Shown here piece after piece: positions 29,207 to 43,858 of a stretch of DNA of 64,000 nucleotides. The notes under the pieces were generated by a model. The model made no database searches, was not told the origin of the DNA, and was given only the letters and a program-made list of their open reading frames with translations. The stretch lies in contig NZ_JADQTN010000001.1 of assembly GCF_017812015.1 (NCBI RefSeq), positions 474,501 to 538,500 of the forward strand, written 5' to 3'. Position 1 is the stretch's first letter, and every line of letters begins with the position of its first letter. Source of the DNA: Pontixanthobacter sp. CEM42 (GTDB taxonomy: Bacteria; Pseudomonadota; Alphaproteobacteria; Sphingomonadales; Sphingomonadaceae). The position numbers and the translations under genes are program-made.

Positions 29207-29271
29207 TTTGCGGTCAAACCAAGCTGGGATTATAAAACGTGCGGTCCAAAAGGGCCGGCAAGGGAGGATCA

Positions 29272-32200
29272 ATGACTGACAGGTCTCAAGTTCGTTTCGG
29301 TGCTGCATCCAAGTCGCTTCTGCTTGGTGTTTCAACCATTGGTTTGTTGGCGGCTTCGCCAGCGATGGCGCAGCAAGCAGGCGAAGAACCAGCTGCAGAA
29401 GATATCGAGGACGGTGATGTAATCGTTGTCAGTGGTATCCGTTCATCGCTTGAGACAGCGCAAGATTTGAAGCGCGATTCCGATACATTCGTTGATGCGA
29501 TTACCGCATCCGATATCGGCTCGCTGCCTGATCGTTCCGTTTCGGAAGCGCTCCAGCGTGTTCCTGGTGTTTCGGTACTGCGTTTCGCTGGCCCTAATGA
29601 TCCGGATCACTTTGCGGTTGAGGGTAGCGGCGTTGTTATTCGCGGACTTCCGTTTGTCCGCTCGGAACTGAACGGCCGTGACGTGTTCGCGGCAAACTCC
29701 GGCGGGGTGCTCGGTTTTGAAGATGTTTCACCCGAACTTCTCGGCAGCGTTGTCGTGTTCAAGAACTCCACTGCTGACCTTATTGAAGGCGGTGCGGCAG
29801 GTACAATCGACCTTCGTACACGCCTTCCTTTTGATCAGCGGGGCCAAGTCATTTCGTTGAGCGGTGAGCTGCAATTCACTGACCTTGCCAACGAAGCGAC
29901 GCCTGCTGGCTCGTTCCTCTATTCGAACGAATGGGAAACCGGTGCGGGTCGTTTCGGTATTCTCGGTAACATCTCTTACAACCGCTTGAAATCGCGCGGC
30001 GATGGTACCGGTATCGGTGATTATCGCGATCGCGATGATGGCGGCACGCCAAACGATACGTCAGATGACAATCTGATTACCGATGCGAATGGTCAGCCAC
30101 TGTTTATTCCGGGTGGTGGCTCGGTCCGTGTACAAGAATTTGACCGTGAACGCTTCTCGATTGCCGCTGCTGCTCAATTTGAGAGCAATGACGGTCGGTG
30201 GCTGGCGACGGCTCAGTTCCTTCGCTCTGACTCCACACTCAACTGGGGCGAAAATGTCATTGAGACAGGTCTCGATGGGGCACCGCGTAGCCGGCCTGCA
30301 CTTGACCGTTCGGACTTCACATTTGATGACAACGGTGTCTTCCAATCGGGAACGATTAGCGACAATACACAGTGGCGCGGCCCGAATGCGGCTTCCGCTA
30401 ATCTGTCACCAACGGGCGGTCAGCAGATCGGCCTGTACCGCAATCGCTTGGAAGAGGATCTAACAACCGATTACGGCTTCAACCTGAAATTCTCGGCGAC
30501 GGATCGTCTGCGCTTCAACTTCGATGCGCAATATATCGATTCAACGGCGCAGGTTTTTGACCTTACCAATCACTATAGCTTCTTCTCGCCGGTAGTTATC
30601 GACTCGACGGTTGGTTCAGTGCCATTGGTTGGTTTCACAACCGATCCGCGCAATGCGTTCATTCGTTCTGCGATGGACCACACCACCCAGAACGAAGCTG
30701 AGGCACTCTCCTTCCGCGGTGATGTCGAATATGACTTCTCTGATGATGGCTGGCTGCGTTCGGTTCGTGCCGGTGTGCGCTATTCGGACCAAGATATCCT
30801 GATCCGCGAATCGGACTTCAACTGGGGTAACATCTCAGAGGTTTGGACGGGCCGGAACTTCGCTGCCAATGGCGGCGGGACGACCCCGCTGATTCTGCCT
30901 GAAGGTAATGCTGACCCGGCTATTGATGCAGTGGTCGCGCCTTTGTTCGATACCTTCGTTTATGGCAATTATCAGCGCGGAATCGGGACAGGCTTCACGG
31001 GGCCGGTGCCGACATATGTTGGTCCCGGCGCGGACGACTTTGATGGCTGGCAGACAGCTTGGGGCAACGTCATCAACGCAATTGGCGGTAGCCCGAGTGG
31101 TTGGACACCATTGACGCAGCGCGGCGGCGTAGTGGCTGGAACACCGTTCTTGCCGAGTGAAATCGGTTCGGTGAAACGTGAGACATGGGCTGCCTACGCT
31201 CGCGTCGATTTCGGTTCGGACAATTTCTTCGGCGGCGAACTGTCGGGTAATATCGGCCTACGCTATGTGCGTACTGATCGTTCGGTTGATACGACGACGA
31301 CCGTTGATAGCTTCGCGACTTTGTTCCCGGCTTTGGTGAACACCGCTGCGCCAGGTGATCCGACGACCAACCAATGTGATCCGGCATTCGCAGGGCGGGC
31401 AAATCCGACCTTCGTGGAACCGGCTGCGTGTGCGAATAGGGCAGCATTGCTTGCTCAGTTTGGCAATGGTCAAATCCTCGAACAGCAAGTCAATGTTGAC
31501 TATGATGAGTGGCTGCCGAGCCTCAACATGAAGCTTGAGGCAGGCGGTGGACATGTCATTCGCTTTGCAGCCTCACGCACAATGACACGGCCGGGTGTGA
31601 GCCAGCTCAACGAACGTATCCGCGTAAACGTTCTGCCTGACACGCAAGCAGCGGTTGGCGCGCCAAGAACGTTTGGCGGTTTCTCTGCCAACGCTACGGG
31701 TAATGCGACGCTGACGCCGCAAATCTCGACCAATCTCGATCTCTCTTGGGAATGGTATTTTGATGACGCCGGTTCGATCACCGTCACCGGTTTCTATAAG
31801 AACGTCGATGATTTCATCGCTTTCGCACCGATCGAAATTCCAGCGCAGGTCCCGGGTCTAACCCTGCTGCGCAACTCTGAGGTCAACTCGGACGAGAATG
31901 GTGAAGTGAAAGGCTTCGAGATTGCTTACCAGCAATTCTACGACTTCCTGCCAGGCTTCCTGAGCGGGCTGGGGATGCAGGCGACATACACCTACATCGA
32001 TTCGCAGGGCGTCGCGAATACGCTGGATCCGAACTTGAACAGTGATGATCCACCGACTGCACGTTTTGCGGTGGATGCAGATGTCTTCCCACGCATTTCA
32101 AAGCACAATTTCAACCTGATCGGTCTGTACGAGAAGGGCGGATTTGAAGGTCGTCTCGCATATAACTGGCGGAGCAGCTTCCAGCTGACCCCCCGTGATG

Positions 32201-32424
32201 TGATCTTCCCGTTCGCTTCGATCTATCAGAAGGCAACCGGCCAATTGGATGCATCGGTGTTCTATAATATTACCCCAGAATTTAAACTGGGCATCCAAGG
32301 GGTTAACCTGCTCGATGATATCACCGAAACGACTCAAACAATCGATGCAAGCGGATTGCAAGCGCCGCGGAACTTCTTCCGCAATGACCGCCGCTTCAAC
32401 TTGATTGCACGCTTGAACTTCTGA
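29272..32424 (+). CDS. TonB-dependent outer-membrane receptor (sugar-island type)
   Basis: The protein has 1050 residues. The ATG at 29272 sits behind AAGGGAGG; an upstream in-frame ATG at 29239 lacks a ribosome site. A signal peptide ends near SPAMAQ. A short TonB-box-like DVIVVSGIR (about 46-54) comes next. The plug follows: DIGSLPDRSVSEALQRVPGVSVLR, VVIRGLPFVRSELNGRDVF and VVFKNSTADLIEGGAAGTIDLRT. A long beta-barrel ends in LIARLNF with the terminal aromatic residue required for outer-membrane insertion. The plug pattern belongs to the large receptors used by Caulobacter, Xanthomonas and sphingomonads for oligosaccharide uptake. Site 3 upstream links it to the LacI regulon. It is followed by a strong hairpin terminator. 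Confidence 0.92.
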   Translation: MTDRSQVRFGAASKSLLLGVSTIGLLAASPAMAQQAGEEPAAEDIEDGDVIVVSGIRSSLETAQDLKRDSDTFVDAITASDIGSLPDRSVSEALQRVPGVSVLRFAGPNDPDHFAVEGSGVVIRGLPFVRSELNGRDVFAANSGGVLGFEDVSPELLGSVVVFKNSTADLIEGGAAGTIDLRTRLPFDQRGQVISLSGELQFTDLANEATPAGSFLYSNEWETGAGRFGILGNISYNRLKSRGDGTGIGDYRDRDDGGTPNDTSDDNLITDANGQPLFIPGGGSVRVQEFDRERFSIAAAAQFESNDGRWLATAQFLRSDSTLNWGENVIETGLDGAPRSRPALDRSDFTFDDNGVFQSGTISDNTQWRGPNAASANLSPTGGQQIGLYRNRLEEDLTTDYGFNLKFSATDRLRFNFDAQYIDSTAQVFDLTNHYSFFSPVVIDSTVGSVPLVGFTTDPRNAFIRSAMDHTTQNEAEALSFRGDVEYDFSDDGWLRSVRAGVRYSDQDILIRESDFNWGNISEVWTGRNFAANGGGTTPLILPEGNADPAIDAVVAPLFDTFVYGNYQRGIGTGFTGPVPTYVGPGADDFDGWQTAWGNVINAIGGSPSGWTPLTQRGGVVAGTPFLPSEIGSVKRETWAAYARVDFGSDNFFGGELSGNIGLRYVRTDRSVDTTTTVDSFATLFPALVNTAAPGDPTTNQCDPAFAGRANPTFVEPAACANRAALLAQFGNGQILEQQVNVDYDEWLPSLNMKLEAGGGHVIRFAASRTMTRPGVSQLNERIRVNVLPDTQAAVGAPRTFGGFSANATGNATLTPQISTNLDLSWEWYFDDAGSITVTGFYKNVDDFIAFAPIEIPAQVPGLTLLRNSEVNSDENGEVKGFEIAYQQFYDFLPGFLSGLGMQATYTYIDSQGVANTLDPNLNSDDPPTARFAVDADVFPRISKHNFNLIGLYEKGGFEGRLAYNWRSSFQLTPRDVIFPFASIYQKATGQLDASVFYNITPEFKLGIQGVNLLDDITETTQTIDASGLQAPRNFFRNDRRFNLIARLNF

Positions 32425-32518: not shown

Positions 32519-32628
32519 GCGTCCGGGGCAGTTGGTGCGGCAAGGACGCGCCAAAGCACCTTCATACCCGCCGAAAGCGGGCTTTGAGAGCCAATTCTGT
32601 CGAGAAAGGACCAATTCCGCAAGGAAAG

Positions 32629-32704
32629 TGGTGCCCGAGGGCGGATTCGAACCACCGACACCACGATTTTCAATCGTGTGCTCTACCAACTGAGCTACTC
32701 GGGC
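32629..32704 (-). tRNA. tRNA-Phe (GAA)
   Basis: Read on the minus strand, the 76-base sequence begins GCCCGAG and ends CTCGGGC-A-CCA, forming a perfect 7-base acceptor stem with encoded CCA. D arm GCTC/GAGC, anticodon stem CACGA/TCGTG around loop TTGAAAA with anticodon GAA, and T arm GGTTCGAATCC are all present. It lies downstream of yacG in the same orientation. The rest of the 32425-32803 gap holds only the terminator and no supported gene. Confidence 0.97.
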
Positions 32705-32803
32705 ATCGCGTCTATTTGAGAGTTTTACACTGTCAAACGCCGCATTGGAAGCGCGCGTATGGCGAAGCTGGACGGACTTGGCAAGGGGTATTCGCGCCGA
32801 AGT

Positions 32804-32989
32804 TTAGTCCTGCTTTTCCCAGTCTTGTTTGGCGATCTCATCGGGCGAAGCGGGGCGGCCCGGAACGGCATATCCATCGCCGAACCACTGGTTCAAATCA
32901 CGGTCCCGGCATCCGCGTGAACAGAAGGGATGAAACTCTTCTCTACGCGGCTTCTTGCAGATCGGGCATGGTTTGCGTTTCGCACTCAT
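32804..32989 (-). CDS. yacG: DNA gyrase inhibitor / zinc protein YacG
   Basis: The product is 61 residues. The four zinc cysteines are visible in CPICKKP (residues 8 and 11) and FCSRGCRDRDLNQWF (residues 23 and 27), followed by the conserved D-L-x-x-W-F-x-x-x-Y segment. YacG binds GyrB and inhibits gyrase in E. coli. Its start overlaps the end of the RNase E/G-like gene by four bases, so it is the last protein gene of the infA-maf-RNase operon. Confidence 0.93.
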   Translation of the reverse strand: MSAKRKPCPICKKPRREEFHPFCSRGCRDRDLNQWFGDGYAVPGRPASPDEIAKQDWEKQD

Positions 32990-33960
32990 AATGGCACGGC
33001 CTGCGCGAAACCGGCTTCGAGAGCAAGGGTGGGATCAATCTCTATCCTGATCTCTCTACCGGTACGTTTGGCAAGGTCGGCAAGCCACTCTGTGGTGAGT
33101 TTGGCTTTGATCGCGGGATGGCAGGTTAGCCGGATTGCACCAGCGTCGAAGATGGCTTCCGCGCGGCGCATCAGACGCCGGGCAGCGGCGCCAGTCTGCG
33201 AATAGGTTAGCCGGTGGAGCAGTGAAGGGCGCTCCAGCCGGGCGACAATCTGGACAAAGCCAAAGCCGTTCATCGCGGTCTTCTCATGCGGCCAATCTGA
33301 GAGCGCTGTTGTGAGTGCTTCGTCCACTGCCTTGCGATCCGCTTTGGCGGCAAGCGTTGGGAAGTCTATCCCGATGGATCCACCCAGATCAAACCGCCGG
33401 ATAGCCTTAGCGATGGGCGTACAGGCTGCCAAAGCCAGTTCGCGCGGTGAACCGTGGCCATCAACGTCAATCAGGGCCATTGCTGGCGTGGGAGAGAAGT
33501 GGAGCGAGCCACCGGTAAAATCATATATTCCCGACCAAGCTTCGTCCCAGATTTCTTCCCACTCGTCATGTGGAAGTGTGCGGACGACCCGCGCCGCTTC
33601 TCCGTTTGCCGCGAACGCTTCGGTCAGACTGAATGCCGAGCGTACAGCGAGATCGGTAGGACGACCTTGCGCCCGTTTGACGCGCGATTTCTCACCTATT
33701 TGGCTGCGCGTGATTTCTATGCGGATCGGAGCACCTTCTTGCGCATCCGCAGGGAGCTTGCTGACGAGAACCTCTTGGCCGCTGGCAAGCTGGGCTGTGC
33801 CGCGTGTGCTGCCTTTTGTTCTTGAAATCAGAGTGGCGTCTTCGATCAATCCGACACCGGCTGATCCGGGCCAATCGATCCGGGCAGCCATCACCTGATC
33901 CTGGTCGACCAGCAAAGCGCGATGCTCGCCGATACCTTCTTCGATCAGCCATTCAGCCAA
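32986..33960 (-). CDS. Ribonuclease E/G family protein, short form
   Basis: The product is 324 residues. It resembles the catalytic half of RNase E/G in compact alphaproteobacterial form. GEHRALLVDQDQVMAARID is the N-terminal S1-like segment, EIWDEAWSG and SLHFSPTPAMALIDVDG the RNase-H-like part, and SIGIDFPTLAAKADR carries the family metal-binding aspartate (about residue 203). The zinc-link CPxC of RNase E is not visible, so it is likely monomeric or reduced in function. It may act in rRNA or mRNA processing. It overlaps maf by eight bases and yacG by four. Confidence 0.8.
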   Translation of the reverse strand: MAEWLIEEGIGEHRALLVDQDQVMAARIDWPGSAGVGLIEDATLISRTKGSTRGTAQLASGQEVLVSKLPADAQEGAPIRIEITRSQIGEKSRVKRAQGRPTDLAVRSAFSLTEAFAANGEAARVVRTLPHDEWEEIWDEAWSGIYDFTGGSLHFSPTPAMALIDVDGHGSPRELALAACTPIAKAIRRFDLGGSIGIDFPTLAAKADRKAVDEALTTALSDWPHEKTAMNGFGFVQIVARLERPSLLHRLTYSQTGAAARRLMRRAEAIFDAGAIRLTCHPAIKAKLTTEWLADLAKRTGREIRIEIDPTLALEAGFAQAVPL

Positions 33961-34528
33961 CGAGGAAGCCCGCCGATTTGAGTAGTGCGCGTGTCTCGAA
34001 CAGCGGAAGGCCCATGACGGACGAGTGACTGCCCTGAATGCTCACAATAAGGCCCTCAGCGGCGCCCTGAATGGCATATCCGCCTGCTTTGCCATCCCAT
34101 TCGCCGCTGGCGAGATATCCCGCGATCTCCTGATCCGATAGACGCTTGAATTTGACGATAGTTTCGTTGAGCTTTTCGCGCAGCGTACCGTCAGGCGCGA
34201 GCAGTGCCACGGAGCTCAAGACACGGTGACGACGACCGGATAGCAATTGCAGACATTTGCGTGCGGTCGCTTCATCCTCAGCCTTGGGCAGAATGCGCCG
34301 CCCCGCAGCCACAACCGTATCACCGGCAAGAACGTGGCCCTTTGCCGATGCGGCGGCCAGAGCTTTCTCGCGCCCCATCCGGCGCGCATAATCACGCGGC
34401 AATTCTTGGTCCAGCGGGTCCTCATCGATATCCGCTGGAGCGATTTGTGCGGGCTCAACACCAAGCCGAGCGAGCAATTCGCGCCGTCTCGGGCTGGCCG
34501 ATGCTAGGATAAGAGCAGGCGCGGTCAT
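33953..34528 (-). CDS. maf: Maf-family nucleoside triphosphate pyrophosphatase
   Basis: The product is 191 residues. LILASASPRRRELLARLG at the N-terminus is the Maf signature (S-x-S-P-R-R). HVLAGDTVVAAGRRIL (about 63-78) contains the catalytic aspartate, and GKAGGYAIQGAAEGLIVSIQGSHSSVMGLPL (about 145-175) is the conserved C-terminal block. Maf proteins hydrolyse canonical and modified NTPs and affect septum formation. The ATG at 34528 is preferred; a TTG at 34543 is adjacent to the infA stop. It belongs to the infA-maf-RNase-yacG operon. Confidence 0.93.
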   Translation of the reverse strand: MTAPALILASASPRRRELLARLGVEPAQIAPADIDEDPLDQELPRDYARRMGREKALAAASAKGHVLAGDTVVAAGRRILPKAEDEATARKCLQLLSGRRHRVLSSVALLAPDGTLREKLNETIVKFKRLSDQEIAGYLASGEWDGKAGGYAIQGAAEGLIVSIQGSHSSVMGLPLFETRALLKSAGFLVG

Positions 34529-34543
34529 AGCCGCACGCAGCAA

Positions 34544-34819
34544 TCAAGCAGTAGGGGCGCCGGGACCACCTTGGCCCCCGGGGCCAGGACCGCCACGGCC
34601 GGGCATAAAGCGGTAGGTGATACGCGCCTTTGTCAGATCATAGGGGGTTAGTTCGCACAGAACTTCGTCACCCACGAGCACGCGGATACGGTTCTTGCGC
34701 ATCTTACCAGCGGTATGGCCAAGCACTTCGTGCCCGTTTTCAAGCTCTACCCGGAACATCGCATTTGGAAGCAGTTCAACCACTTTCCCGCGCATTTCGA
34801 GGAGTTCTTCTTTAGCCAT
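34544..34819 (-). CDS. infA: Translation initiation factor IF-1 with C-terminal tail
   Basis: The core [27 protein letters not shown]...[22 protein letters not shown] (residues 3-71) is the OB-fold of IF-1, nearly full identity to the family pattern. The protein has 91 residues instead of the usual 72, because a glycine/proline-rich tail ([20 protein letters not shown], residues 72-91) follows the normal end. IF-1 occupies the ribosomal A site during initiation. It leads the operon continuing with maf. The tail is in frame and there is no earlier stop, so it should be translated. Confidence 0.95.
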
Positions 34820-34996
34820 ATAATTCCGTTACCTATGCAGTTCGTCGATTGCTGTTGCGCGCCCATACAAGCAGGCGGAACAAAAGGGAAGCCTAAGGCG
34901 TATGGGATCAAGTTTTCACTGTTTTGTCTTAAAATTGCGACACTTTGATACCGAATGGCGCTTGCCCCCGGGCGCTATCTCGCAAAAAGGTTTTTT

Positions 34997-37900
34997 ATGC
35001 GTTTCCCGACACTTCTTTGCTCGACGGCTGCGGTCGCACTTGCCTTGCCCACCAACGGAGCTGCGCAAGAGGTAGAAGCGCAGCCGACGAACGACGAGCA
35101 GTCGACGATCAGTCAAGGTGACGAGATCGTGGTTGTAGGCCAGCGTCTGCGCGGTCAGGTCGAGACCGATCAGCCGCCTATACTGGAGCTGGAAGAGGAA
35201 GATATTGCCGCCTTCGGTGCGAATTCGATCACCGATCTTTTGGCGGCAATTGAACCGCAAACCAGTTCGACACGCGGGCGCGGCGGTGGTCGGCCGGTAT
35301 TTCTGATCAACGGCGTCCGGGTTGGTAGTTTTCGCGAGTTTCGATCGTATCCGCCTGAAGCAATACGCAAGGTAGAGGTCTTGCCTGAGGAGACCGCACA
35401 GAAGTTCGGCTTCCCGCCTGATCGACGCGTTGTGAACTTCATCATGAAGGAAAACTTCAGCGCGATCACGGCAGAGGCCGAATATGAGGAACCATCGATC
35501 GGCGGTTATTCGCGTACCGAGCAGGAGGCCACTCTGCTCAAGATCACCAAAACGGGCCGGATCAATCTGAATGTTGAGTTGAGCGATGTATCCTCGCTGA
35601 CAGAAAGCGAGCGCGACATCACCCAGACGTCCGGCAGCGATCCTGATGTTGCGACGGACCCCGATCCGGCTGAGTTTCGCACGCTGATTTCCGATGCGCG
35701 TGAGATTGAAGCGACGGCGAACTATGCCAAATCATCGTTGGAAACGGGCAGTTCGGTCGGCTTGAATGCGACGTTTAATCGGTCGGACAGACTAAATCTT
35801 TCAGGCTTGAACACTGTGACCTTAGTCGATGGCGCGGGGAACTCGGCAATCCGGACATTCGATGCAGATAATCCTCTGACGACGCTCCAACGCACCAATG
35901 TATTCTCTTCATCGGCCAGCTACAATCGACGCCTCGGACCGTTCCAACTTACAGCAACTGCTGATAGCAGCATAACCGATGCACGCACGCAAATTGGTCG
36001 CCGCGCCGATGTCACCGCGCTTGTTGCTGATGCTGCAGCTGGCAATTTTGCGATTGATGGTGTCATCCCGGTGCAGGGTGATGCAGGCTTCGACGAGGCG
36101 AATAGCATAACCTATTCCGGGAACAGCAAACTCACGCTTCGCGGCTCCCCACTTGAGCTACCGGCGGGCGAGCTCTCGACGACCCTGGATCTCGGTTACG
36201 ACTGGAACCGGATAGATAGCGAAGACTCTAGAGCTGGTTCTGCCATTTCGTTGACGCGCGGCGATCTTTCGGGCGGGTTCAACATCGGTATTCCGATCAC
36301 GAGCGCGCGCGACGAGGTGTGGGATGCGCTGGGCACGATCAACCTCAATGGACGAGCGAGCTTCAACCACCATTCTGACTTCGGCACGCTTTACCGGCTG
36401 ACGGGGGGCGTTACCTGGTCGCCAGTTAAGAGTCTCAACTTGCAAGCAACTTACGTTTGGCGTGAAGTTCCGCCGTCGCTCAGTCAGCTTGGTAACCCGC
36501 AGATCACGACACTGAATGTACCGACGTTTGACTTTGCAACTGGCGATACGTCGCTCGTGTCGGTGACATCTGGCGGTAATCCGCTACTTCAGGCCGAAAC
36601 GCAATCCGATTGGAGCTTCTCGGCCAATTGGGAATTTGTCGATAATGCGCGGTTCCGGATCGACTATTCGCGCAATACCTCCAGTGATGTGTCCTCGTCA
36701 TTCCCGTTCCTGACGCCCGAGATTGAGGCCGCATTTCCGGGGCGCGTAACCCGCGATGCGGGCGGCACGCTGGTCGCCTTGGATCGCAGGCCCGTTGATT
36801 ATTTCGAGACCCGAACCGAGCGTGTTACGTTTGGCCTCAACCTGAGGGGTTCGTTCGGCGAGAGGCGCCCGCAGCCGGAAGGACAAGGTGGCGAAGCCGG
36901 ACGGAGACCAGGCGCTGGTCCAGAAGGTGCGCGCACAGAGGGCAGGCGACCACAAGGCACTTCCGGAGGCGGAGGCGGCCGTCCGGGAGCAGATCAGGAC
37001 CAGTCTGACGCAGAGGGTCGGCGTGCTGTCTTCATGAAGTTCCGTGAACGCGTATGCGCGGATGACGGCGAAGACTTTCTCTCGCGGCTGGTTGATGCCG
37101 CCAATCGTGGTGAGAAGTTGGAGGAGTTCCCCGAGTTTGATCCGGCTCAAGCAGAGCGGATTTTGAACCGCTTGCGCAATGAAGACGGCACCATTGATAC
37201 CGAACGATTGAAGCAATTCCGGACGCGTATTTGTAGCACCGATGGCCCGCCGGGACGTCGCGGAGCGGGAGGCGGACGAGGCGGGCGCCCCGACTTTGCC
37301 AATATGAGCGAAGAACAGCGCACGGCCTTCATAGCATTCCGGCAGCGTATATGCGCCGATGATGGCGAAGCGGTTCTGACTCGCTTGGTCGAGGCGACCA
37401 AAGACGGGAACATTCCCGAAGAGCTTGCCGTGTTTGATCCTGAACGGGCTCAACGGATAATGGCGCGGCTGCGCAATGACGATGGAAGCATCAATACCGA
37501 GCGGCTTGGCCGGTTCCGCGAGCGTATGTGCAGCGCTCCCGGCGGACAACCGCAGGCGGGTGGGCAGGGCGGTGGACGTCCTGCTGTTGCGCGCGGCGGG
37601 GGCTTCGGCAGAGGCGGCGACGGACGCGGACGGTTTTTCTTCAACGCCAATCACTCGGTCGAGCTCAACCGTGAAGTACTGATTGCACCAGGCGGACCGC
37701 TGCTTGATTTGCTCAATGGCGACAGTCTTAGCAGCACCGGCACACCGCGGCATAGTACGCGGATCGAGGCTGGTGCGTTCCGCAATGGATTGGGTACACG
37801 TTTGTCCGTTCGTTACACCGGTACTGCGCGGATCGATGGCAACGGTACATCAGGCAGCACCGACTTGTTCGTGGACGATCTTGCGACGTTTAATCTGCGT

Positions 37901-38101
37901 CTGTTCGCAGATCTGGGAAGAGTCTTGAAGAAAGACGAAGGCCTGTTCAAAGGAATGCGCCTGTCATTCCGGTTCGACAATATCTTCGATAGCCGCCGCA
38001 TCGTGCGCGACAGCAACGGTGATATCCCGATCAGTTTCCAGCCGCTATTGGTTGATCCAACGGGCCGTTATCTGGGTTTTGAAGTCCGAAAGCTTTTTTA
38101 G
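34997..38101 (+). CDS. TonB-dependent receptor with duplicated cysteine-containing insertion
   Basis: The product is 1034 residues; start ATG 34997 follows AAAAGG. Signal peptide ends near GAAQ. The TonB-box-like DEIVVVGQR comes next. The plug contains SITDLLAAIEPQ, RPVFLINGVRVGSF, and VEVLPEETAQKFGF. The barrel ends GRYLGFEVRKLF. Between residues about 615 and 880 lies a region unlike a beta-barrel: Gly/Arg/Pro/Gln-rich linkers around two copies of a 69-residue module (about 679-747 and 778-846). Each copy has a C-A-D-D-G start, a helical middle, an N-E/D-D-G-T/S-I turn and a terminal cysteine. Cysteines lie at 687, 746, 786 and 845. The plug resembles sphingomonad receptors for unidentified cargo. 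No regulator or transporter gene is adjacent. Confidence 0.85.
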   Translation: MRFPTLLCSTAAVALALPTNGAAQEVEAQPTNDEQSTISQGDEIVVVGQRLRGQVETDQPPILELEEEDIAAFGANSITDLLAAIEPQTSSTRGRGGGRPVFLINGVRVGSFREFRSYPPEAIRKVEVLPEETAQKFGFPPDRRVVNFIMKENFSAITAEAEYEEPSIGGYSRTEQEATLLKITKTGRINLNVELSDVSSLTESERDITQTSGSDPDVATDPDPAEFRTLISDAREIEATANYAKSSLETGSSVGLNATFNRSDRLNLSGLNTVTLVDGAGNSAIRTFDADNPLTTLQRTNVFSSSASYNRRLGPFQLTATADSSITDARTQIGRRADVTALVADAAAGNFAIDGVIPVQGDAGFDEANSITYSGNSKLTLRGSPLELPAGELSTTLDLGYDWNRIDSEDSRAGSAISLTRGDLSGGFNIGIPITSARDEVWDALGTINLNGRASFNHHSDFGTLYRLTGGVTWSPVKSLNLQATYVWREVPPSLSQLGNPQITTLNVPTFDFATGDTSLVSVTSGGNPLLQAETQSDWSFSANWEFVDNARFRIDYSRNTSSDVSSSFPFLTPEIEAAFPGRVTRDAGGTLVALDRRPVDYFETRTERVTFGLNLRGSFGERRPQPEGQGGEAGRRPGAGPEGARTEGRRPQGTSGGGGGRPGADQDQSDAEGRRAVFMKFRERVCADDGEDFLSRLVDAANRGEKLEEFPEFDPAQAERILNRLRNEDGTIDTERLKQFRTRICSTDGPPGRRGAGGGRGGRPDFANMSEEQRTAFIAFRQRICADDGEAVLTRLVEATKDGNIPEELAVFDPERAQRIMARLRNDDGSINTERLGRFRERMCSAPGGQPQAGGQGGGRPAVARGGGFGRGGDGRGRFFFNANHSVELNREVLIAPGGPLLDLLNGDSLSSTGTPRHSTRIEAGAFRNGLGTRLSVRYTGTARIDGNGTSGSTDLFVDDLATFNLRLFADLGRVLKKDEGLFKGMRLSFRFDNIFDSRRIVRDSNGDIPISFQPLLVDPTGRYLGFEVRKLF
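37031..37534 (+). repeat. Tandem duplication inside the TonB receptor gene
   Basis: Two imperfect coding repeats of about 205 bases (37031-37237 and 37328-37534) are separated by a Gly/Arg-rich linker. The repeat period is 99 codons. They encode matched segments such as RVCADDG / RICADDG, RLRNEDGTIDTERL / RLRNDDGSINTERL and RICS / MCSA. The two cysteines are 59 residues apart in both copies. Confidence 0.85.
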
Positions 38102-38109
38102 TCCGGAGT

Positions 38110-38919
38110 TTAGTGCAGCCGCGTTTTCGGGAAGAGCAGGCTCGAGAGGCCTTTCGCCTCGAACGGTTTCCACTCACCTTCTCGTTGCGCTAACCGATCC
38201 GCAATCGCGAACATCACCGAGGGATTCACGCCAAGGCCGATATGGCTGGCGATCACTTCGATGTTTTCGGTGTTCTCATGGCTGCACGGATGCTGCACTG
38301 AACCGCGCCAGTGAACGACGCCGTCGCCTTTGGTCAGGATTGAGGTCGTTGGAACAGGTGGAGCTTCATCCAGACCGGTGAATTTACCAGCTTTAACAGG
38401 CTCCGGCTCTTTGCCGTTGAGATATTCGAACAGAATGCGTGCATTGCTGTGATTGCGATCATCGCTGATCGGACTGCCAAGCGAAATGACCATCCGGACC
38501 ATGTCGGGGACCATTTTGGCAAGCTCTCGCGCAAATACACCGCCCAGGCTCCAGCCTACGATCGAGATCTTGCCGCCGGTGCGTTCGTAGAGTTCTTCAA
38601 CGCAGCGGGCCATCGCTTCGACCCGTTCATTATCAACTTTGACATTGCGGCCGAGATCCCAGCCAGCGGTCTCATATCCAAGTCGATCGAGCAATGAGCG
38701 CATCGGACGCGTTGAGGCATCAGTCGCCATGAAACCGGGCAGAACCAGTACACCGTGTCCGTCGCCTTTGGGCAATGCGCCCATGCCCATTGCCGGACGC
38801 AGTGCGAGGAAGCTGGCGAATTCCGCCATTGCGCGCCCAGGCTCTGACAATGTCAAAATTCGATGCGGCGGTCTGGCGGCTTGAGCGGCCGGTGCTGCGT
38901 TCATTGTTGCAGTAGTCAT
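38110..38919 (-). CDS. Alpha/beta-hydrolase, lipase/esterase-like
   Basis: The product is 269 residues. The segment GVLVLPGFMATDASTRPMRSLLDRLGYETAGWDLG (about 50-84) is the oxyanion-hole strand with the PGF turn. VGWSLGGVFARELAKM (about 120-135) contains the nucleophile serine in G-W-S-L-G, and SHIGLGVNPSVMFAIADRLAQ near the C-terminus provides the histidine. Its ATG overlaps the WS/DGAT stop by four bases, so a shared role in acyl-ester or triacylglycerol turnover is likely. It could equally be a PHB-depolymerase-like enzyme. Confidence 0.8.
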   Translation of the reverse strand: MTTATMNAAPAAQAARPPHRILTLSEPGRAMAEFASFLALRPAMGMGALPKGDGHGVLVLPGFMATDASTRPMRSLLDRLGYETAGWDLGRNVKVDNERVEAMARCVEELYERTGGKISIVGWSLGGVFARELAKMVPDMVRMVISLGSPISDDRNHSNARILFEYLNGKEPEPVKAGKFTGLDEAPPVPTTSILTKGDGVVHWRGSVQHPCSHENTENIEVIASHIGLGVNPSVMFAIADRLAQREGEWKPFEAKGLSSLLFPKTRLH

Positions 38920-40550
38920 TTCTTGGCTTTTCCTCTCGCCGTGCGACGGGTTGTTTTTGGTTTTGCGGCGGTCGTTTTGCCGCCTTTGGATTTCGTTGGG
39001 CTGGCGCGCTTGGCAGCGGCTTTTTTGGGTGCCGCTTTCTTGGCGGGCGCCTTCTTCTTCGCTGTGCTCTTTTTCACCGGACCCTTCTTGGGTGCCGCCT
39101 TCTTGGCAGTGGGCTTTTTCGCCGGAGCGGCAGCTCCCGCCGCCAGATCGCGGTACTCTTCAAAGCTTTCCTGAATGCACTCGGCATAAAATTCAGGGTC
39201 GGGCATCAATTCACGGCATGCGGTGAATGCAATGGTCGCCTCGTCGACATACGATTGCACCACATGGCCCAGACCCATTCCGTCGGTCAGGCACACGAGG
39301 CCCATCTGGCTTTCTAGCCGGGCGCCGCTGGAATAAATCGACACTGGCGGACCGGGAACATTGGTCACCACCGTAGAAAACGGCGCGCTAAGCCGGTCGG
39401 CAAGGCCAAGGCGGGTGTAGAGCTGCGCGCCCAGCGCCATAAACAGAGCGGGGCTGACCTTGCTCATCTCGGTCATGTTCCGCGCGCCCATTGCTTCCGT
39501 CATGGCCTTGCTGTTGGCAGTTTTGTCATGAACGAATTCAAGGCGCTCGATTGGATCTTCCAATTGTGTACCCAGCGGGGCGACCATCGCGGCGACTTGG
39601 TTACCCATATCGCCCTTCTCGTCTTTGGAACGAACCGAAATCGGTGCCATCGCTGTAAGAGTACGTCCCGGTAGATCGTTTTTGCTCAGCAAGTACCGGC
39701 GCATTGCTCCGCCAACGATGGCAAGGAATACGTCGTTGATTTTGCAACCCGGCGAAAGCGCACGGATCGATTTGATATCGGCTAACGGAACGCTGCGTCC
39801 TTCGACGACACGGGCGGGAGAAATCGTCCGGTTAAAGCGGCATTTCGGTGCAACCATGTCAGCGCTGACTTTGAAGTCCTTTGTCGCCAAACCCTTGATC
39901 GCATTGGCGATACCGGGTGCGGCTTTAGCGGCTACTTCGAGCTGTTTAAGCGGATTGGTCAGCGCACTAAGATAGGATTTGCCGAGCAGTTCGGCTGCAT
40001 TCGGTATCTTTTCCGGTTTCCACTCATCAGGAGTGTTGGGTGGCGGTGCATCTGGCGTAATCGTGTGCATCGCCTCAAGCAGATCGACACCGCTCATTCC
40101 GTCAATTGCCGAGTGGTGAACTTTGGTCACCATTGCAAAGCTCCCGGGGGTCACGCCCGGGATATTGTCCAGCCCTTCGACAATGGTGAACTCCCAAGGT
40201 GGGCGCTCCAAATCGAGTGGGCGGGCGAAAATGCGTGCGGCTTGGATACATAGCTGCCGCCAATCACCTGGCTTTGGCAGTGCAATATGGCGGACGTGAT
40301 ATTCCAGATCGAAGTCTGGATCCTCTATCCAATAGGGATAATCAAGATCGAATGGCACTTTGACCAGCCGCTGCCGGATCGTGCGCGAAAGCTGCATCCG
40401 GCTCTCGAAAAAGCCCAGAATGTCCTTGTAGCGGACAAATCCGCCAGGGGCGGTTTCCGGATTATAAATGAGTAACGAGCCGATATGCATCGGCGAATTG
40501 CGTGTTTCCAGCGCGACGAAGGACGCATCCATACCTTGGAGTTGGCGCAA
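38916..40550 (-). CDS. Wax ester synthase/diacylglycerol acyltransferase (WS/DGAT) with H1-like tail
   Basis: The protein is 544 residues. The catalytic HHSAIDG (HHxxxDG; about 145-151) sits within FAMVTKVHHSAIDGMSG. PLDLERPPWEFTIVEGLD and TNVPGPP are further family marks. Residues 1-473 form the normal WS/DGAT body, which esterifies long-chain alcohols or diacylglycerol with acyl-CoA at the membrane to make storage lipid. The last 71 residues are lysine/alanine/proline-rich (AKKPTAKKAAPKKGPVKK and on), like histone H1 or the tail of phasin PhaF. The bacterial enzyme usually ends near residue 470. The following gene is a co-translated hydrolase. Confidence 0.9.
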   Translation of the reverse strand: MRQLQGMDASFVALETRNSPMHIGSLLIYNPETAPGGFVRYKDILGFFESRMQLSRTIRQRLVKVPFDLDYPYWIEDPDFDLEYHVRHIALPKPGDWRQLCIQAARIFARPLDLERPPWEFTIVEGLDNIPGVTPGSFAMVTKVHHSAIDGMSGVDLLEAMHTITPDAPPPNTPDEWKPEKIPNAAELLGKSYLSALTNPLKQLEVAAKAAPGIANAIKGLATKDFKVSADMVAPKCRFNRTISPARVVEGRSVPLADIKSIRALSPGCKINDVFLAIVGGAMRRYLLSKNDLPGRTLTAMAPISVRSKDEKGDMGNQVAAMVAPLGTQLEDPIERLEFVHDKTANSKAMTEAMGARNMTEMSKVSPALFMALGAQLYTRLGLADRLSAPFSTVVTNVPGPPVSIYSSGARLESQMGLVCLTDGMGLGHVVQSYVDEATIAFTACRELMPDPEFYAECIQESFEEYRDLAAGAAAPAKKPTAKKAAPKKGPVKKSTAKKKAPAKKAAPKKAAAKRASPTKSKGGKTTAAKPKTTRRTARGKAKK

Positions 40551-41884: not shown

Positions 41885-43858
41885 ATGTCCAACCCTCGTG
41901 AACCCTCCAAAGCTGGCAGTCCGCATGATCCTCGTGGTGCGGAGCGATTCAATGAGGAGAAGGCGACATACACGGTCGCGTCGGCCACGCCCGATCTGGA
42001 TGCGGGGTTGGAAGCCATCCGCGATACGGTGAAGACTTTGAAGCCGGTACCGGGCGTTTACCGGATGCTCGATACGCGCGGTGATGTACTCTATGTCGGT
42101 AAAGCGCGGGTGCTCAAAAACCGCGTCGCCAATTACGCGCAGCCAAAGGGGCAGCCGCAGCGCCTGCTCAGGATGATCAGCCAAACGCGGCGGATGGAGA
42201 TCGTTACCACCAATAGCGAGGCTGAGGCGCTGCTGCTGGAAGCGCAGCTGATCAAGCGCTTTCGTCCGCCATTCAATGTGCTGCTCCGCGACGACAAGAG
42301 CTTTCCCTTTATCCTGTTGCGGTCCGACCATGACTTCCCGCGCATTATGAAGCATCGCGGTGCGCGGCGCGCGAAGGGTAATTATTATGGCCCGTTTGCC
42401 AGTGCCGGATCGGTCAACACCACGATCAATGCGCTGCAAAAACTATTCCTGCTGCGATCATGTACCGATAGTTTCTTCAGCCGCCGTGACCGGCCGTGCC
42501 TGCTCTATCAAATCAAGCGTTGCTCGGCCCCGTGCGTCGACCGGATCACTACGGATGATTACGCCGCTCTGACCAAGCAGGCGAAGGACTTCCTTGGCGG
42601 AAAATCCGGCGCGGTACAGGCTGATCTGGAAAAGCAGATGGCCAAAGCGGCGGAGGATTTGGATTTTGAGACTGCCGCAATTCTGCGGGACCGGTTACGT
42701 GCGGCGACCTTTATTCAGGGCAGTCAGGCGATCAATGCCAGCGGTGTGGGCGATGCCGATGTGTTCGCGCTCGCTAGCAAAGGCGGGCAGATTGCGGTGC
42801 AGGCGTTCTTCATCCGTGGCGGGCAGAATTGGGGCCACCGCGCGTTCTTCCCGAGCCATACAAAGGGCGTGGAGGAGGATCAGGTACTCGCCAATGTCCT
42901 CGCGCAGTTTTACGAGGAAGTGCCGCCACCGCGCACCATTCTGGTCGACCGCAAATTGCCCGAGCAAGCGCTGATCGAAGAGGCTTTTGCCGCTGCTGCC
43001 GAACACAAGGTTGATATTTCTATCCCGCAACGCGGTGACCGGCGCAGCCTGATGAAGCAGGCGCAGCGCAATGCGGAAGAAGCGCTCGACCGGCGGCTGG
43101 CTGAGCGCGGCACGAAGGCCAAGACGTTGCGCGAACTGGCCGAATTCCTCGAACTTCCGGAGGTGCCGCAGCGCGTCGAAGTTTATGACAACTCGCACAT
43201 TCAGGGTTCCAAGGCTGTCGGCGGGATGATCGTCGCTGGTCCCGAAGGTTTCATCAAAAACCAGTATCGCAAATTCAATATCAAGAGCGCGCAGACCGAT
43301 GACGATTTCGGGATGATGCGCGAAGTGATGGAGCGCCGCTTTGCCCGCGCGATGAAGGACGATCCTGACCGCGAAACCAGTGGTGAAAAGGCGGTATGGC
43401 CCGATCTTGTGCTGATCGATGGCGGGAAAGGACAGATGAGTTCGGTTCGCGATACGCTGGAGGAATTGGGTATCGAGGATGTGCCGCTGATCGCAATCGC
43501 CAAAGGGCCGGGGCATGGCCGCGAGGGCCGCGAAGTGTTCCACTTCCCCGATGGCCGCGAAAAAATGCTGCCGACCAATTCGCCGGTCCTGTTCCAGCTC
43601 CAACTCTGGCGCGATGAAGTCCACCGCTACGCCATCGGCGCCCACCGCGCCAAACGCAGCCGCGCCATCACCGCATCACCGCTGGACGAAATCCCGGGCG
43701 TAGGTCCGGCGAGAAAGCGCGCTTTGTTGCTGCATTTTGGCACAGCCGGAAAGGTGAGGGCGGCGAGTTTGGAAGACCTGCAACGCGCGCCGGGGGTTAG
43801 TGGATCAGTCGCACAGACGGTTTACGATTTTTATCATGCTGGAGACGAAATTGTGTAG
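41885..43858 (+). CDS. uvrC: Excinuclease ABC subunit C
   Basis: UvrC makes both incisions in nucleotide excision repair. The 657-residue protein has the GIY-YIG domain in the form GVYRMLD...VLYVGKA (about 58-75). UvrC cysteine pairs with CLLYQIKRCSAPC lie near 205-217, a UVR motif (KQMAKAAEDLDFETAAILRDRLR) near 255-278, and the RNase-H-like endonuclease region has DNSHIQGSKAVGGM and LVLIDGGKGQMSSV (Asp). A terminal helix-hairpin-helix has SPLDEIPGVGPARKRALLLHFGT. A roughly 40-residue N-terminal extension precedes the usual start. It is divergent from mipZ. The reverse transcriptase gene follows 33 bases after the stop. Confidence 0.97.
   Translation: MSNPREPSKAGSPHDPRGAERFNEEKATYTVASATPDLDAGLEAIRDTVKTLKPVPGVYRMLDTRGDVLYVGKARVLKNRVANYAQPKGQPQRLLRMISQTRRMEIVTTNSEAEALLLEAQLIKRFRPPFNVLLRDDKSFPFILLRSDHDFPRIMKHRGARRAKGNYYGPFASAGSVNTTINALQKLFLLRSCTDSFFSRRDRPCLLYQIKRCSAPCVDRITTDDYAALTKQAKDFLGGKSGAVQADLEKQMAKAAEDLDFETAAILRDRLRAATFIQGSQAINASGVGDADVFALASKGGQIAVQAFFIRGGQNWGHRAFFPSHTKGVEEDQVLANVLAQFYEEVPPPRTILVDRKLPEQALIEEAFAAAAEHKVDISIPQRGDRRSLMKQAQRNAEEALDRRLAERGTKAKTLRELAEFLELPEVPQRVEVYDNSHIQGSKAVGGMIVAGPEGFIKNQYRKFNIKSAQTDDDFGMMREVMERRFARAMKDDPDRETSGEKAVWPDLVLIDGGKGQMSSVRDTLEELGIEDVPLIAIAKGPGHGREGREVFHFPDGREKMLPTNSPVLFQLQLWRDEVHRYAIGAHRAKRSRAITASPLDEIPGVGPARKRALLLHFGTAGKVRAASLEDLQRAPGVSGSVAQTVYDFYHAGDEIV

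Follow-up and report, generated by a model that had tools for sequence, protein, structure and literature searches.

The gene analysed here encodes an ordinary TonB-dependent transporter (TBDT), which takes up nutrients across the outer membrane of marine bacteria akin to Erythrobacter and carries, in an unusual place and in naturally variable copy number, a domain absent from the searched libraries. In the product from Pontixanthobacter sp. CEM42 the domain is present twice, each copy very probably a helical bead closed by a disulfide and borne on disordered Gly/Arg linkers. We propose, at a probability of roughly 0.4, that periplasmic turn T8 of the barrel has been expanded to a disordered tether whose two modules act as docking elements for a periplasmic protein. 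We infer that such docking, of TonB or of another partner, is to be favoured over a cargo relay, an envelope anchor or a neutral spacer, given the position of T8 at the TonB docking site of FhuA. Positions refer to the window, the whole stretch of 64,000 nucleotides that was analysed, and the features are collected in Table 1.

Table 1. Features of the receptor gene and its conserved neighbours, with positions in the window
Feature	Position	Strand	Basis or remark
Ribonuclease G/E-like protein, neighbour	32986..33960	-	Conserved, 80/80 loci
Maf-like protein, neighbour	33953..34543	-	Conserved, 80/80 loci
infA (translation initiation factor IF-1), divergent neighbour	34544..34819	-	Conserved, 80/80 loci
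TonB-dependent transporter gene	34997..38101	+	1034 aa, ATG 34997; PF07715 match, Foldseek matches
Predicted signal peptide, ~residues 1-23	34997..35065	+	MRFPTLLCSTAAVALALPTNGAAQ
TonB-box-like stretch EIVVV, residues 43-47	35123..35137	+	Assigned by resemblance
Plug domain match, residues 67-130	35195..35386	+	Pfam PF07715
Barrel strand 16, residues 600-620	36794..36856	+	AlphaFold2/DSSP
Periplasmic turn T8 insert, 257 residues, 621-877	36857..37627	+	Joins strands 16 and 17; other turns have 2-14 aa
Gly/Arg/Pro linker 1, 622-672, disordered	36860..37012	+	pLDDT <50 for 629-670; composition
Module A, 673-749	37013..37243	+	Helices 672-686, 691-703, 716-726, 735-746
Module A cysteines 687 and 746	37055-37057; 37232-37234	+	
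Gly/Arg linker 2, 750-771, pI 12, disordered	37244..37309	+	Composition; AlphaFold2 model
Module B, 772-848	37310..37540	+	Helices 772-785, 790-802, 815-825, 834-846
Module B cysteines 786 and 845	37352-37354; 37529-37531	+	
Gly/Arg linker 3, 849-877, basic, disordered	37541..37627	+	Composition; AlphaFold2 model
Barrel strands 17-22, 878-1034, C-terminal Phe at end	37628..38098	+	AlphaFold2 model

The receptor and its duplicated module

The plug was matched by PF07715 above the Pfam cut-off (E 4.7e-6). An STN signalling domain before the TonB box was not found in the receptor, Plug being the only Pfam domain there, and only ~20 residues lie between the signal peptide and the TonB-box-like stretch, in which I44 and V46 are invariant in 61 homologues. 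A second in-frame ATG is found upstream of the start, at 34955.

An earlier note on this DNA had described a helical cysteine module, present in two copies, as an insertion in the barrel, and the repeat, the helices and the cysteines were all found; the open reading frame, its coordinates, the period of 99, the 69-residue copies and the four cysteines came out exactly as given there, and composition bore out the Gly/Arg/Pro linkers around both copies. The copies span residues 679-747 and 778-846 (37031-37237 and 37328-37534) and share 40 of 69 residues, with a local alignment score of 210 against 25 ± 5 in 2000 shuffles (maximum 50). At the DNA level 132 of 207 nucleotides are identical, and the differences fall on codon positions 1, 2 and 3 as 20, 13 and 42, a pattern which fits two constrained protein-coding copies. 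The folded unit is slightly larger than the repeat, with four helices in ~77 residues (~673-749 and 772-848).

AlphaFold2 on 116 modules gave this four-helix unit with confidence (pLDDT 90.9; helices 2-14, 19-30, 44-53 and 63-75). The most conserved positions in this set are R11, C15, R53, G59, R72 and C74, and D58, I/V61, D62 and L66 are well conserved; among the arginines, R11 is kept in 114/116, R53 in 111/116, R70 in 95/116 (with Lys in 14 more) and R72 in 110/116. The module reached the cut-off of no Pfam family and matched no NCBIfam family, and its fold had no Foldseek match at E ≤ 0.001 either in the PDB or among viral models. WH_MCM3_C, DUF3135, Bbp19 and HHH_5 stayed below the Pfam cut-off and were confined to one or two module members, and the PDB sequence matches of the module profile all had E > 0.08 and were unrelated among themselves. 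The module looks like a small new domain family, whose fold may provisionally be called new relative to the PDB and the viral models. The possibility raised earlier, that all homologues carry it as a known domain, is at odds with the absence of any library match and with the orthologues that have no module.

The lack of the first acidic ligand in the helix-NxDGxI-helix, previously likened to part of an EF-hand, holds throughout the 116 modules, and the Glu of position 12 is mostly absent as well. The module shares with an EF-hand the helix-loop-helix and, at positions 5, 6 and 8 of the loop, D-G-x-I, yet an EF-hand has acids at positions 1 and 12, whereas position 1 of the module is never acidic (L, V, S, I, F, A or M in 116/116) and position 12 is R in 80, K in 22, A in 10 and E in 4 of the 116. 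No EF-hand profile of Pfam was found at E ≤ 0.01 across the 116 modules, and EF-hand_6 came up at E 0.1, below its cut-off. Calcium binding of the EF-hand type is contradicted by the ligands missing at positions 1 and 12, and together with the profile searches these positions rule out an EF-hand calcium site.

Modelled placement of the insert in periplasmic turn T8

The AlphaFold2 model of the receptor, built from 61 sequences (mean pLDDT 83, pTM 0.71), comprises a plug and 22 barrel strands and matches PfeA, FepA and BtuB in the PDB (Foldseek; best E 1.3e-21, to PfeA). With its plug, its 22-strand barrel and its C-terminal Phe the receptor resembles the transporters of the FepA/PfeA/BtuB fold, but T8 has few residues in these, whereas in the receptor it has 257 and holds two folded beads. 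The insert is placed after 16 strands and before 6, that is, at an even-to-odd strand junction, and since both termini are periplasmic it corresponds to periplasmic turn T8. Moreover, the receptor profile aligns with BtuB 345-401, and in the known topology of BtuB the stretch equivalent to the insert is the short turn that joins strands 16 and 17.

The structure prediction sets the module outside the barrel strands, as a separate insert between strands 16 and 17, and on the periplasmic side, against its earlier placement in an extracellular loop. The accompanying remark on the short loops usual at this place in TonB barrels is right, but the place in question is the periplasmic side. In the query, turns T1-T7, T9 and T10 measure 2-14 aa and T8 257 aa; across 77 homologues the former span 2-19 aa and T8 27-339, which makes T8 by far the most variable segment. 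The remaining loops of more than 20 residues are all at extracellular positions in the query. In the full receptor model pLDDT is below 50 in the linkers (629-670, 748-764 and 848-872) and ~70-90 in the modules. By this model, the beads would hang on flexible tethers at the periplasmic side of the barrel.

A β-barrel with one much enlarged periplasmic loop, again T8, is known in the alginate exporter AlgE; unlike the receptor, AlgE has an 18-strand barrel and no plug, and its loop is not known to carry disulfide-paired helical repeats. Neither a periplasmic-turn domain in a TBDT nor such a receptor in sphingomonads was found in a literature search that covered mainly open-access papers.

Paired cysteines

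Across the plug and barrel columns of 77 complete orthologues there is no Cys in 57,743 residues, and T8 contains 4 in 47 receptors, 2 in 22 and 0 in 8, never an odd number. One disulfide per module would be expected to give just such a pattern in an oxidising periplasm, and the Cys pair of each module very likely forms the predicted disulfide. In the query, the sole Cys besides 687, 746, 786 and 845 is C8 in the signal peptide. DsbA-like and DsbB-like genes are encoded in the same genome; made by periplasmic DsbA/DsbB, the disulfide would close the bead by linking the ends of helices 1 and 4. The Cys-Cys spacing within a pair ranges from 37 to 63, thus the pair is conserved and the middle of the module is not, and the short versions presumably do without the second helix. 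Cysteines so strictly paired make the module a useful case for envelope redox work.

Distribution, copy number and selection

In a first search of 60 related genomes, orthologues were confined to the same GTDB family, and the inserts of the relatives at the identical barrel junction held two, one or no Cys modules; one distant paralogue was without any insert. The comparison of repeat number between strains for which the earlier note had called gives 0, 1 or 2 modules among orthologues. The 80 loci in named genomes belong to Pontixanthobacter, Erythrobacter, Porphyrobacter, Qipengyuania, Altererythrobacter, Croceibacterium, Novosphingobium and others, and in 80/80 the infA, Maf-like and RNase G-like genes stand divergent beside the receptor, so the receptors are orthologues of one locus. 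The receptor is inherited vertically, in synteny, in Erythrobacteraceae/Novosphingobium, and there is no sign of spread of the module by mobile elements, synteny being complete. Across the 299 genomes searched from the order and the 289 from the class, convincing matches of the module profile were limited to one GTDB family and to receptor-sized frames, some of them cut by contig ends, and no protein other than the receptor was found to contain the module in the genomes searched. Non-receptor matches at E 0.003-0.01 in the 299 genomes of the order fell in frames that were broken or unrelated and were regarded as chance matches.

On the barrel tree, parsimony requires at least 16 changes in copy number. 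In the module tree, which is weak as it has few columns, a starred clade of their own unites the second copies of Erythrobacter/Porphyrobacter, whereas modules A and B of the window cluster with Pontixanthobacter modules, which suggests separate duplications in different lineages. The single modules of several Porphyrobacter-like strains cluster with the A copies, suggesting loss of B. Module dN lies well below a saturated dS and is ~1.3- to 2.5-fold the barrel value; linker 1 is the fastest-evolving part. Maintenance of the modules by selection appears well supported from these sequence comparisons.

Distant paralogues (L022, L023, L025, L026, L029 and L030) have long Gly/Pro-rich T8 linkers without cysteines, some of which hold other short, possibly helical stretches. 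Given such Cys-free linkers, the disordered T8 may be older than the Cys module.

Possible role of the modules

T8 and T9 are marked next to the TonB bound to FhuA in the structure of that complex (PMC11658791), and periplasmic loops of FoxA contact TonB electrostatically (PMC6699858); a T8 bead on a flexible tether would thus be positioned to touch TonB. In the mechanism that we propose, T8 would have expanded into a disordered Gly/Arg/Pro tether with two ~77-residue domains, and the beads would lie below the barrel mouth, beside the plug exit, at the place of TonB docking. They would serve as flexibly tethered docking elements, with TonB itself as the first candidate partner and a periplasmic cargo acceptor as the second, and a second bead would increase avidity. 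As the barrel and the plug are kept, together with the lengths of the extracellular loops, while T8 varies, the module would tune a step that follows substrate recognition; some orthologues are without modules, so it is not needed for basic transport. The genome itself gives eight TonB_C matches in 3.1 Mb, and a docking element could distinguish among its several TonB_C proteins. Two of the matches (L157 and L159; G000:C1:794249-794857) share one 393-aa frame, perhaps a tandem TonB C-terminal domain. A wider claim is conceivable but doubtful, namely that a new, disulfide-closed T8 domain of variable copy number controls or reinforces the docking of TonB (or a cargo acceptor), so that what diversifies among species is energy coupling, not substrate recognition. 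Zero, one or two copies at one conserved locus amount to a natural experiment in which species differ mainly in T8, and this variation allows a direct test of the effect of a periplasmic attachment on TonB coupling and cargo release.

Perhaps T8 simply tolerates insertions, and a stable bead drifts in copy number with no selected function, or nearly none. The repeated gain and loss of copies, the paralogue linkers that are Gly/Pro-rich only and the fast evolution of the linkers all agree with such a spacer, which would likewise show modules evolving faster than the barrel. However, the Cys pairs and the DG-I-D-L-R-R-C core are conserved in nearly all 116 modules across many genera, and module dN is far below dS, which argues that more than folding stability has been required over this time and renders the neutral reading unlikely.

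It is similarly improbable that the beads bind the imported ligand, or its metal or cofactor, at the barrel exit and pass it on with the conserved arginines as contacts. Their modelled site at the periplasmic mouth and the four conserved Arg per module would suit a relay, as would the almost constant lengths of the extracellular loops, from which the cargo is probably identical across orthologues; yet the arginines may serve structurally as salt bridges, the modules offer no metal site of His or Cys beyond the Cys pair, and some orthologues have no modules.

Rather less is to be said for an envelope anchor, in which cationic Gly/Arg linkers and beads would tie the receptor either to an inner-membrane partner or to peptidoglycan. 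The insert has the length to extend into the periplasm, and a pI of 12 makes linkers 2 and 3 strongly basic, but linker 1 is neutral, the linkers are highly variable in sequence and length, and the module matches no peptidoglycan-binding family.

A periplasmic signalling domain, comparable in function to the N-terminal domain of FecA/FpvA and located in T8, is very unlikely. The signalling domain of FecA, FpvA and FoxA is also folded, periplasmic, flexibly tethered and beside the TonB-docking face; however, it has another fold and precedes the TonB box at the N-terminus, whereas the module stands in T8, is helical, carries Cys pairs and occurs in 0-2 copies, resembling the signalling domain in neither sequence nor fold. 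The periplasmic position, the nearby TonB box and the fact that the periplasmic additions described for TBDTs in a review are regulatory, N-terminal signalling domains (PMC11658791) speak for signalling; the conserved neighbours found, infA, maf and RNase G, speak against it.

An extracellular loop binding metal, protein or polysaccharide, as the earlier note had suggested, is the least probable of all: insertions in TBDTs usually occur in extracellular loops, but in the model this insert follows an even-numbered strand with six strands after it, and the long loops L2, L4, L7, L8, L9 and L11 occupy the alternate positions.

Genomic neighbourhood

The receptor's neighbours are housekeeping genes, and no RNA element was found upstream of it. 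Alpha/beta hydrolase and wax-ester-synthase/DGAT-like genes (38110-40550, minus strand) are convergent with the receptor and adjoin it in 34 and 33 of the 80 loci, respectively, and UvrC (41885-43858) is within reach in 59 of the 80. A second, ordinary TonB-dependent receptor (29239-32424, plus strand; Plug E 5e-12, barrel PF00593 E 7e-28) lies ~2.6 kb upstream, outside the conserved receptor-infA block. A tRNA-Phe gene is present at 32629-32704 on the minus strand, and the overlapping ORF at 32584-32991 is a false frame derived from it.
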